From Dehalococcoidia bacterium (GTDB lineage Bacteria > Chloroflexota > Dehalococcoidia > Tepidiformales > Tepidiformaceae), in assembly GCA_022451885.1 (NCBI GenBank), contig JAKUNN010000030.1, positions 1 to 37,697 of the forward strand: a DNA stretch of 37,697 bases. The letters run 5' to 3'. The first letter of the stretch is position 1; each line of letters starts with the position of its first letter. The notes beneath the pieces were generated by a model, which saw only the letters and a list, made by a program, of their open reading frames with translations, did not search any database and had not been told where the DNA came from. A program made the translations under genes and the position numbers. Positions 28,974-34,173 of this stretch are shown here, one piece after another.

Positions 28974-30314
28974 ATGTTCGTAGGCTACTTTACTGAACGT
29001 CCTTATCAGGATCGAAACTCGGGTTATTTTGGTGCAGCTGGTCGGGATATTACCGATCTATCCATGTCCAATGGCAGTTATGATTCGAGATTAGGTGCAG
29101 ATCTTTACAATCGTTATTTGGATGAAAAGGTTTATGCCGAAGAAATGGGGTTTGATGGCCTCATGCTTAACGAACATCATTCCACTCCGTTTTGTATGGG
29201 TGGAGTGGTCAATGTTGAAGCAGCTATTTTGGCGCGGATTACGAAGCGCGCAAAAATAGTAATTCTTGGTAATGTATTACCAATTTGGGATGATCCACTT
29301 TGGCTTGCTGAGGAATTGGCAGAAATCGATATGATTTCTCGTGGTAGGTTGGTAACTGGTTGGGTCCGTGGTACTGGTCGGGAATCTGTGGCTCATAATG
29401 CACAGTCGCCATTCAACTGGGAGCGATTCCAGGAAGCACATGATTTTGTTCTTGAGGCTTGGACTCGTCCTGGTCCTTTTCGTTGGGAGGGTGAGCATTA
29501 CAATTATCGGTATGTGAATCCTTGGTCACGACCTTATCAAGATCCGCATCCACAAATATGGATTCCCGGGGTCCTGAGTCGTAATACCGTTGAGTGGACC
29601 GCCCGTCATAGGTATCCCTATGTCATGCTTGCTACCGATCTCGAACCAACAAAAAAATCCTTCGAATATTATTCTGAGGTTGCTGCTGAAGAAGGATATG
29701 AGGCTGGTACACAGCACAGAGCTTACCTTTTTAAAGTTCACGTAGATGAGACCGAAGAGTTGGCAGAACAGGCAGCTAGGAAATATGTTGAAGGACCTTC
29801 GAATCCATTTTTGGAGGGAAATCAAGGAACTGTGCGGCCATTCCTTCAAAATCTTCCAGGGATGACATCAAGGAAGAATCTTTTGCCAACAGTAGCTTCG
29901 TATGCGGCTACTGCAGCACGTGGTCGTGGTGCAGAACATGAGGATGCTAGTAAAAAAGAATCAGGAAGGAATCCAGAACGGAAAACTGGTGATTTCGGTT
30001 CTTTTGATGATCAAATTGATCGGTATACCATCATTACAGGTACTCCAAAAACGGTTATTCCAAAAGTAAAGCATGTTCTTGAATACTTGCGTCCAGGCAG
30101 TATTTTCTTTTGGGATGGTGACGGTGCTATGGATCATGATGATTCAATGCGTTCACTCAGGCTTATGGGTGAGGAAGTGATTCCTGCAGTACGTGAGATG
30201 AGTAAAGAACTGGACTTGAAGAGTCCATTTGAAGTTGATACGAAGACGAACCAGGTTATCGTTGATGAAGAGTCGACAGGTAACAATGGTTTGATTAGTG
30301 CTAAGGAGGCATAA
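28974..30314 (+). CDS. LLM-class (bacterial luciferase-like) flavin-dependent monooxygenase
   Basis: LNEHHSTPF, VILGNVLPIWDDPLWLAEELAEIDMISRGRLVTGWVRGTGRE, FKVHVDETEE: luciferase-like monooxygenase motifs. Confidence 0.92.
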   Translation: MFVGYFTERPYQDRNSGYFGAAGRDITDLSMSNGSYDSRLGADLYNRYLDEKVYAEEMGFDGLMLNEHHSTPFCMGGVVNVEAAILARITKRAKIVILGNVLPIWDDPLWLAEELAEIDMISRGRLVTGWVRGTGRESVAHNAQSPFNWERFQEAHDFVLEAWTRPGPFRWEGEHYNYRYVNPWSRPYQDPHPQIWIPGVLSRNTVEWTARHRYPYVMLATDLEPTKKSFEYYSEVAAEEGYEAGTQHRAYLFKVHVDETEELAEQAARKYVEGPSNPFLEGNQGTVRPFLQNLPGMTSRKNLLPTVASYAATAARGRGAEHEDASKKESGRNPERKTGDFGSFDDQIDRYTIITGTPKTVIPKVKHVLEYLRPGSIFFWDGDGAMDHDDSMRSLRLMGEEVIPAVREMSKELDLKSPFEVDTKTNQVIVDEESTGNNGLISAKEA

Positions 30315-31190: not shown

Positions 31191-32867
31191 GTGGCTGGTA
31201 TTGAAACAGATATTTTAGTTGTTGGAGGAGGTCCTGCGGGCTCTACTACTGCGACATTATTGGCGCAACAGGGATGGAAAGTTGTTCTTTGTGAGGCAGA
31301 AACGTTTCCAAGGGAACATGTAGGTGAGTCATTATTACCCGCAAGTATTCCTATTTTATTGAAAAGTGGGGCTTTTGCTGCCGTTGAAGCGGAAGGATTT
31401 CTTCCTAAATACGGAGCCACAATGGTTTGGGGATCTCAGTCCGAGCCTTGGTCTTGGTATTTCCGAGATGCAAGTCAAAGATACCCTTCATCGTTTCAAG
31501 TCACACGGTCTCGATTTGACCAGATTCTGTTAGAGAATGCACAAGAGCATAATGTTGACGTACGTGAGGCTCACAGGGTGTTAAGTATCAATCTAGATAA
31601 TGATGAATATGTTGAAGTTAGAGTGCAGCCTACTGAAAAGGAAGGTCTGGCAGAGGTTTTTACGTTAAATGCCAGATTCCTTGTAGATGCGAGTGGGCAG
31701 AATGGCCTCGTCGCAAGACAAGAAAAACTGAGGGAAGAAGATCCATTTTTTCGTAATCTTGCTTTATATGGATATTTTTCTCAGGCTGCTAGGCTTCCTG
31801 AACCAGATTCATCAAATATTTTTATTGAATCTATTGAGAATGGATGGGTTTGGACAATTCCACTGCATACAGGAGAAACAAGTGTGGGAGTTGTAGTAGA
31901 CAGTGTTGTTGGAAGTAAAAAAATCCGAAGTATGGGTGCAGAAACTTACTTTCATGAGCTATTAGCATCTGCGTCATACACCGCAGACTTGCTAGTACAT
32001 GCTGACTTAGAAAAGGGGCCATTTGTAGTACGCGATTGGTCATACATGGCTAAGCGCTTTTCAGGACCTAACTATGTCCTTGTGGGTGATGCCGCATGTT
32101 TTATAGATCCGCTTTTTTCTTCGGGAGTTCATTTAGCCCTTTCGTCTGCAGTTCTTGCCGCTGCATATGTTTCTACAAGCTTGGATGATTCGGAGTTAGG
32201 TCGAGCTAGTGCCGGTGTGTATGAACAAAATTATCGTCAGCAATATGATCATTTTCGTGAGCTTGCCCGGCTTTTTTACTCTAGTAATCGCACAGCTGAA
32301 AGTTATTACTGGGAAACTCGTCGTTTAACGGATGCAGATCAAAATGTTCCGGCGCAATTAGCTTTTGTACGTGCTGTTGCAGGGCAACCTCCTCATGGTT
32401 ATGAGCGGGCTGTTTTGTCCCATGGAGAGATGCCACGTGTTTTTTCTGATGCAGTGAGTTCGTTTGAGAAACTACGTAAACAAAGGGCAGAAAAATTCGA
32501 TATGACTGTCGGTAATGGTGATATTTCGAGTGATTTGAATTTCGACGAGAAAAATATATCTATTTTGCTCGAAGTTATACCAATAATTCCTTCAAATGTT
32601 TCGTTAATCAGGAAACCTGTTCTGGATGAGGGAAAGTTTATTTGGGGTAGTGTTATTGAAACTCCTCATCGCCCAGAAGGTCTTCCTGTTAGTCGCCTTA
32701 TTGTGAGGCTATTTGATTTAATAAACGGTGGTAGAAATGTGCGTGACATACTTGGTGAATTTGAAAAGAGTACGGATAAACAGCAGTTTGCTACTGTCAG
32801 ACAACAAGTTGCATTCTCTTTACGCCTTTTGTATATCGATGGCTGTATTGATCTGGATTTTGCCTAG
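31191..32867 (+). CDS. FAD-dependent halogenase-like oxidoreductase with C-terminal PqqD/winged-helix-like extension
   Basis: N-terminal VVGGGPAGSTTATLLAQQGWKV, PREHVGESLLP, FLPKYGATMVWG, ENGWVWTIPL (GWxWxIP), VLVGDAACFIDPLFSSGVHLAL; GTG start. Confidence 0.85.
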   Translation: MAGIETDILVVGGGPAGSTTATLLAQQGWKVVLCEAETFPREHVGESLLPASIPILLKSGAFAAVEAEGFLPKYGATMVWGSQSEPWSWYFRDASQRYPSSFQVTRSRFDQILLENAQEHNVDVREAHRVLSINLDNDEYVEVRVQPTEKEGLAEVFTLNARFLVDASGQNGLVARQEKLREEDPFFRNLALYGYFSQAARLPEPDSSNIFIESIENGWVWTIPLHTGETSVGVVVDSVVGSKKIRSMGAETYFHELLASASYTADLLVHADLEKGPFVVRDWSYMAKRFSGPNYVLVGDAACFIDPLFSSGVHLALSSAVLAAAYVSTSLDDSELGRASAGVYEQNYRQQYDHFRELARLFYSSNRTAESYYWETRRLTDADQNVPAQLAFVRAVAGQPPHGYERAVLSHGEMPRVFSDAVSSFEKLRKQRAEKFDMTVGNGDISSDLNFDEKNISILLEVIPIIPSNVSLIRKPVLDEGKFIWGSVIETPHRPEGLPVSRLIVRLFDLINGGRNVRDILGEFEKSTDKQQFATVRQQVAFSLRLLYIDGCIDLDFA

Positions 32868-32885
32868 TTATTGAGTCTAGACTTG

Positions 32886-32891
32886 TTGACA
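32886..32891 (+). promoter_or_regulatory. Consensus -35 hexamer TTGACA upstream of nadA
   Basis: Perfect TTGACA; a 17-nt spacer places a weak -10 (CAAATT) at 32909-32914, overlapping the dyad. Confidence 0.5.
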
Positions 32892-32910
32892 GTTATATCA
32901 TCATCTGGCA

Positions 32911-32947
32911 AATTGCACTTAGTGTATTTAATACACTAAGTGCAATT
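32911..32947. promoter_or_regulatory. Perfect 18-bp-arm inverted repeat, candidate operator of nadA
   Basis: AATTGCACTTAGTGTATT-T-AATACACTAAGTGCAATT; lies between the -35 element and nadA ATG 32959. Confidence 0.75.
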
Positions 32948-32958
32948 AAGGTAAAATT

Positions 32959-34173
32959 ATGACATCATCGATGCCAACCACAAAAGATTCTACCGATCTC
33001 CTTGCTCTGTACACTGATCCTGACACCTGTCCAACGGATCAATTGGAGGCAGTTCCTCTTGCGGAAGAATCCGCCTTTGTTGCCTGGCAGCAAGAAATAC
33101 CACGTTCTTATCTGAGTCTTTCAACAGAAGAGCTAGATTTTCGCATTAGGCGTTCTCGGTTGCGATTGGGTGATCGACTAGTAATTCTTGGTCATCATTA
33201 TCAACGTGATGAAGTGTTTAAATATGCTGATTACACAGGGGATTCGTTTAAATTGGCCCAACATGCTGCAGCGCAGAAAGATACTGAGTTTGTTCTTTTT
33301 TGTGGTGTTCACTTTATGGCTGAATCTGCGGATATCCTCACGAGTTCTGATGTAGCTGTTTTACTTCCCAATATGGCCGCAGGTTGTTCTATGGCTGATA
33401 TGGCTCGGCCAGCTGATGTTTTCTCAGCTTGGGCTGAAATCAATAATGTACTTGGTAATCAACACGGAACAATCCCAATTACCTATATGAATAGTGCGGC
33501 TAGCTTGAAGGCTTTCGTGGGCGAAAATAATGGTATTGTTTGCACTTCCTCAAATGCTTCGCAGACTTTTGAATACGCTTTTGACCGTGGCGAAAAAGTT
33601 TTCTTTTTTCCTGACCAGCATCTTGGACGTAATACTGCATTCGACATGGGTATTTCCTTGGATGAGATGGTCCTTTGGAAACGGGGGAAACCTTTCGGAG
33701 GATTAACTAGAGATGATCTTGAGCATGCAAAAGTTATTTTGTGGGAAGGTCACTGCAGCACACATCAACGTTTTTCTACGGAGCAGATTGCGGAAGCGCG
33801 TTCCAAATATGAGAACGTTAACATTATTGTGCATCCGGAGTGTTCATGGGATGTAGTGCAGGCTGCTGATTCTAATGGTTCTACAGAAAAGATTATTACT
33901 ACTGTGAATGAGGCACCTTCAGGTTCAGTTTGGGGTATAGGTACCGAGATCAATCTAGTTCGGCGTTTAGCTGATGCGAATCCGGACAAGGACGTATTCT
34001 GTTTGGATCCGGTTGTCTGTCCTTGTAGCACCATGTACCGAATCCATCCTGCTTATATCGCATGGGTTTTGGAATCTCTGGAACAAGGTAAAATTATTAA
34101 TCAGGTGATAGTTGATCAAAAAACACGAGATTGGTCAATGCTAGCTTTAGAACGAATGCTGCAGCTCAATTAA
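32959..34173 (+). CDS. nadA: Quinolinate synthase A
   Basis: LVILGHHYQRDEVFKYADYTGDSFKLAQ, GVHFMAESADILT, LLPNMAAGCSMADMA, EGHCSTHQRF, HPECSWDVV, VCPCSTMYRIHPAYIAWVLE. Confidence 0.97.
   Translation: MTSSMPTTKDSTDLLALYTDPDTCPTDQLEAVPLAEESAFVAWQQEIPRSYLSLSTEELDFRIRRSRLRLGDRLVILGHHYQRDEVFKYADYTGDSFKLAQHAAAQKDTEFVLFCGVHFMAESADILTSSDVAVLLPNMAAGCSMADMARPADVFSAWAEINNVLGNQHGTIPITYMNSAASLKAFVGENNGIVCTSSNASQTFEYAFDRGEKVFFFPDQHLGRNTAFDMGISLDEMVLWKRGKPFGGLTRDDLEHAKVILWEGHCSTHQRFSTEQIAEARSKYENVNIIVHPECSWDVVQAADSNGSTEKIITTVNEAPSGSVWGIGTEINLVRRLADANPDKDVFCLDPVVCPCSTMYRIHPAYIAWVLESLEQGKIINQVIVDQKTRDWSMLALERMLQLN

Follow-up and report, generated by a model that had tools for sequence, protein, structure and literature searches.

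A perfect palindrome over the nadA promoter of a Tepidiformaceae bacterium is a predicted operator of an NrtR-family repressor of NAD synthesis

In a Dehalococcoidia bacterium of the same family as Tepidiforma flava, a long perfect palindrome lies immediately upstream of nadA, raising the question of whether it is the binding site of a regulator of NAD synthesis and, if so, of which one. The source assembly comprises 1.43 Mb in 87 contigs and is 87% complete; the window, i.e., the whole stretch of DNA analyzed, has a length of 37,697 nucleotides. The putatively controlled gene, nadA (32959..34173, plus strand), encodes a quinolinate synthase of 404 amino acids (Pfam NadA, 310 bits; TIGR00550, above the cut-off). 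The palindrome occupies positions 32911..32947 and consists of two 18-bp arms (32911-32928 and 32930-32947) that are complementary at 18/18 positions around a single central T (T32929). Its distance to the nadA ATG at 32959 is 11 nt, and the sequence confirms all features claimed in a preliminary description of this DNA, i.e., a 37-nt dyad with 18/18 pairs, a TTGACA on its 5' side, and 11 nt to the start codon. The preceding gene (31191..32867, plus strand), which resembles genes for FAD-dependent monooxygenases or halogenases (QhpG-like), ends 43 bp upstream from the dyad and is outside the nadA regulatory system. Also upstream of nadA, a gene resembling those for luciferase-type monooxygenases is located at 28974-30314.

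To define the conserved part of the dyad, NadA orthologs were fetched from related genomes, and the DNA upstream of nadA was scanned with a score computed over the 14 arm positions only, because true sites are missed when the spacer is scored as well. We found that TTMGTGT-N7-ACACKAA is present upstream of nadA across the Tepidiformaceae and in other Dehalococcoidia. In the source genome, this conserved 21-bp core corresponds to TTAGTGT-N7-ACACTAA at 32919..32939, with the half-sites GTGT (32922-32925) and ACAC (32933-32936) and a center that reads GTGT-ATTTAAT-ACAC. All nadA loci of close relatives (25/25; L035-L059) contain a site that matches at 14/14 arm positions. In whole-genome searches allowing one mismatch, 36/37 family genomes were positive with one to four sites each, and in the sole negative genome nadA is truncated by a contig end; a reversed-pattern control in the family genomes gave mostly zero or one match and a maximum of five. 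Conservation upstream of nadA orthologs, on which the preliminary description had made its proposal depend, was thus found. Among the proximal nadA sites, of which 39 are distinct, pairing is invariable at offsets 4-7 and 9 from the center; it is seen in 92-95% at offsets 8 and 10, in about 70% at offsets 11-12, and in 62% at offset 3, and is near chance at offsets 1-2 and 14-20. The conserved unit is an operator of 21-25 bp in which two half-sites flank a mostly unconstrained spacer. Conservation covers the central 21 bp and another 2-3 bp on each side; the extension to perfect 18-bp arms is local to the source genome and not kept in relatives.

The absence of conservation in the outermost 8 bp of both arms in relatives would fit a palindrome that arose by chance or came with a mobile element and has no function. 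However, from base composition, perfect 18-bp arms with a gap of 0-8 are expected 6e-6 times per window and 2e-4 times per genome, and, with gaps of up to 8 allowed, no other inverted repeat in the window has arms longer than 11 bp. Moreover, the dyad is single-copy in the 1.43-Mb assembly, and dozens of genomes share the core in an identical location relative to the promoter. We consider a functionless palindrome negligible as an explanation; for the core, it is already refuted.

A −35 box, TTGACA, is located at 32886..32891 (plus strand), where TTGAC is kept in relatives, and a probable −10 box, CAAATT, is located 17 bp downstream (32909..32914, plus strand). In an alignment of relatives anchored on the operator, TTGAC is followed about 17 bp later by CAnnnT (family) or TAnnnT (outgroups), which directly precedes the operator. 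From this layout, nadA transcription would start at about 32920-32922, inside the operator. A probable ribosome-binding site, AAGGT, follows immediately downstream from the dyad (32949..32953, plus strand). We also notice a class-wide TGG(C/T)AnnnT block directly upstream from the operator (window 32886-32914; nadA upstream regions L035-L105), which is possibly an extended −10 element. In twelve family genomes (L041, L046-L052, and L054-L057) and one outgroup, a second operator copy is present 50-54 bp upstream from the first; the distal copies in the family include the −35 box, e.g., TTCGTGTCAGGTTGACACGAA. The source genome has kept TTGACA at the matching place and has no second operator there. 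Based on their positions, the proximal and the distal operators would both suit a repressor. The earlier proposal of a regulator-binding dyad over the promoter and start region of nadA is, as far as the sequence can tell, supported by conservation of the dyad upstream of nadA orthologs and by further copies that precede nadBC.

Alternatively, the dyad could act in RNA as an attenuator, a riboswitch, a stabilizer of the 5'-UTR, or a terminator of the upstream gene. The source transcript could indeed fold into a hairpin of 17 bp with a loop of 3 nt (−22.6 kcal/mol, z −6) just upstream of the ribosome-binding site. However, the two innermost positions of either side are paired in relatives at frequencies close to chance (0.08-0.38), pairing declines past offset 12-13, and positions 3/19 are mismatched in 8/14 nadB sites and 4/13 distal nadA sites in which the half-sites are still good. 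In addition, the distal copies span the −35 box and, therefore, precede any transcript. Finally, there is no T-tract downstream from the dyad, and no Rfam family, NAD riboswitches included, reached its gathering score in window positions 32500-33200. Given the unconstrained spacer, the mismatches at 3/19, and the location of distal copies over the −35 box, the site is better explained as a DNA operator than as an RNA hairpin, and we consider the stem-loop that the preliminary description kept as an alternative very unlikely.

Which protein would bind this operator? A search of the source genome with NrtR_WHD identified a single protein (94.7 bits). Its gene (contig C25 of the source genome, about 29114-29740, minus strand; L034:1474-2100, minus) adjoins miaB. 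The protein has 208 amino acids and contains a Nudix domain (PF00293, 70.8 bits) followed by an NrtR winged-helix domain (PF21906, 92.7 bits), and it aligns over nearly its full length with BtAraR of Bacteroides thetaiotaomicron (1.7e-39) and with SoNrtR (5.9e-30). The NCBIfam NrtR equivalog NF050029 is its best full-length match in that collection, yet the score of 145.9 bits is below the cut-off of 400, and the source NrtR is a distant member. Its Nudix signature, GLLQPGETLDDAATRKLQEETGL, has RK in place of RE, an impairment that it shares with SoNrtR and with most of the clade and that fits a sensing role better than a catalytic one. NrtR_WHD is present in 33/37 family genomes, and the four negative assemblies are 72-89% complete.

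Several lines of evidence connect NrtR to the site. In the family, nrtR is often divergent to miaB and has neither nadA nor nadBC as a neighbor, and we saw no site beside nrtR in Tepidiformaceae. In the outgroups L189, L190, and L206, miaB is followed by nrtR, the site, and nadA, and in L189 and L190 also by nadB and nadC. In a phylogenetic tree, the NrtR proteins of the source family and of the outgroups fall on one side of a branch with a support of 97; together, the tree and the shared miaB neighbor support that these proteins are orthologs. Among 50 genomes compared via their nadA loci, 14 have both the site and NrtR, 28 have neither, 2 have only the site, and 6 have only NrtR (Fisher p 3.5e-6, a value that overstates independence because the genomes are related). 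The two genomes with only the site are fragmentary assemblies in which NrtR was undetected. As for those with only NrtR, L068 has the variant palindrome TTTGCGT-N7-ACGCAAA, L066 has half-degenerate copies, and the remaining four are other Chloroflexota that lack the site and have NrtR proteins outside the clade.

In the BtAraR-DNA complex, Lys179, Arg180, Asn181, and Lys184 of the recognition helix together with Lys204 and Arg205 of the wing read GTGT, and the operator strand is GTGT-N7-ACAC (PMC4666351). Residues 178-184 of the source NrtR, DKRNFRK, are identical to residues 178-184 of BtAraR; in the wing, Arg205 is kept, and His replaces Lys204. This match of residues and predicted operator, which was not used in discovering the site, is the strongest single link of NrtR to the site.

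The lack of linkage between nrtR and nadA or nadBC in the family itself would be compatible with NrtR as a bystander and the site as the operator of another factor, i.e., NiaR, NadR, NadQ, or an undescribed protein. However, the linkage in outgroups, the co-occurrence, the residue match to the BtAraR complex, and a parallel shift in a sister family (see below) all favor NrtR, making another factor very unlikely. As for individual candidates, the 3H domain of NiaR was found in 0/41 genomes, including the source genome, while control genomes were positive. NadQ of Proteobacteria has a related winged helix (7q91 matches residues 115-202) and the same targets, nadABC; unlike the source NrtR, it lacks a Nudix domain, and its consensus, ttATRCTCannntGAGYATaa (PMC5343134), differs from TTAGTGT-N7-ACACTAA. 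The preliminary description had listed NrtR among its candidates, correctly in our analysis, but doubted it and leaned toward an uncharacterized regulator because the motif was unfamiliar. NrtR motifs differ strongly between lineages (PMC4666351); therefore, an unfamiliar motif is no evidence against NrtR, and the outgroup linkage, the co-occurrence, the single copy of the protein, and the residue identity with BtAraR fit NrtR rather than an uncharacterized protein.

The same operator is found at other genes of NAD synthesis. In relatives, all fetched sites that are not at nadA (13/13) immediately precede nadBC, and one additional site (L192) precedes nadB at a contig end. Thus, a search for dyad-like copies before NAD genes or a regulator gene, as suggested in the preliminary description, leads to nadBC in relatives and to the nrtR-nadA interval in outgroups. 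In the source genome, we detected no operator upstream of nadB (contig C27, L193), where the best score was 9/14; a GTG-N8-CAC stretch is present there with a spacing that is wrong for an operator. If the nadBC site is truly missing, the source organism would regulate only the NadA step via an NrtR-type operator. A search of the source genome for near-dyads with up to 3 mismatches returned only the nadA copy, and a looser search gave three extra 13/14 sites (contigs C23, C49, and C53). Because about 1.3 such sites are expected from base composition by our own estimate and two of the three are inside genes, we treat them as chance matches. The site on C53, TTAGTGTTTGATTGACACTAT (L188:2248-2268), is about 38 bp upstream of a gene for an ABC ATPase resembling sufC of iron-sulfur assembly, and NadA is an iron-sulfur enzyme; nevertheless, this site is probably a chance match as well.

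Altogether, these comparisons support the prediction that the dyad controls nadA as the operator of a repressor that belongs to the NrtR family and regulates de novo NAD synthesis, a reading to which we assign a probability of about 0.92. In the model that we propose, a dimer of NrtR, encoded elsewhere in the genome, would place one recognition helix on each GTGT half-site of TTAGTGT-N7-ACACTAA. We infer this physical binding and also that it represses rather than activates; bound NrtR would cover the transcription start behind TTGACA-N17-CAAATT and, consequently, block nadA transcription. A small molecule at the Nudix-like domain may alter binding, and nadA expression would thereby be matched to the NAD supply. 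Known effectors are ADP-ribose for NrtR of Shewanella and Synechocystis and NAD for NdnR of Corynebacterium.

This system closely resembles the NrtR regulons of Shewanella, Synechocystis, Mycobacterium smegmatis, and Corynebacterium (NdnR) in having a regulator with a Nudix-like domain, an impaired Nudix signature, and a winged helix, a palindromic operator with a 7-nt spacer near nadA, nadB, or nadC and, in outgroups of the source family, nrtR beside nad genes. It differs in that the half-site in the source family is TTMGTGT and that nrtR is located by miaB away from nad genes. For comparison, the operator of M. smegmatis NrtR is GTTTTCGA-N7-TCGAAAAC (PMC6800001). BtAraR, also of the NrtR family, is the best match with a solved structure (PDB 5ddg and relatives) and shares the DKRNFRK helix and the GTGT-N7-ACAC core; however, BtAraR governs arabinose genes and responds to L-arabinose, and its Lys204 is the His of the source NrtR. 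We conclude that the site is an NrtR-type operator that is ordinary in kind, lineage-specific in form, and well supported in detail. We found no description of NrtR in this group in the searchable papers, a set without the original NrtR publication and the Chloroflexi collection (five genomes) of RegPrecise 3.0.

The sister family f2 (L218-L227 and L256-L280) allows a comparison in which both partners differ. Every f2 NrtR that we inspected reads DRRNF. The nadA operators in this family have the form TTTGCGT-N7-ACGCAAA or TTTGTGT-N7-ACACAAA or combine the two, and an additional, degenerate copy is often located about 25 bp upstream; in the DKRNF genomes compared, the GTGT half-sites are kept. 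The exact GCGT form is present in 10/393 genomes of the class, all of which are f2, and is upstream of nadA in seven; in the other three (L223-L225), it does not adjoin nadA. A strict coupling of Arg179 to GCGT is weakened because several DRRNF genomes retain GTGT or mixed half-sites. We tentatively speculate, at slightly less than even odds, that the Chloroflexota branch of NrtR governs NAD synthesis using the GTGT-N7-ACAC code of Bacteroides AraR while ligand sensing has diverged, and that, in f2, the replacement of Lys with Arg at the first residue that reads bases accompanies the drift to GCGT. If so, f2 would be a natural experiment in repressor-operator co-evolution.

The implications of these findings are twofold. 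A regulator, its predicted operator, and two target operons of NAD synthesis are assigned in a group known mostly from metagenomes. Moreover, an operator and DNA-reading residues that match a solved complex and are shifted in a sister family make a compact case for an NrtR DNA code.
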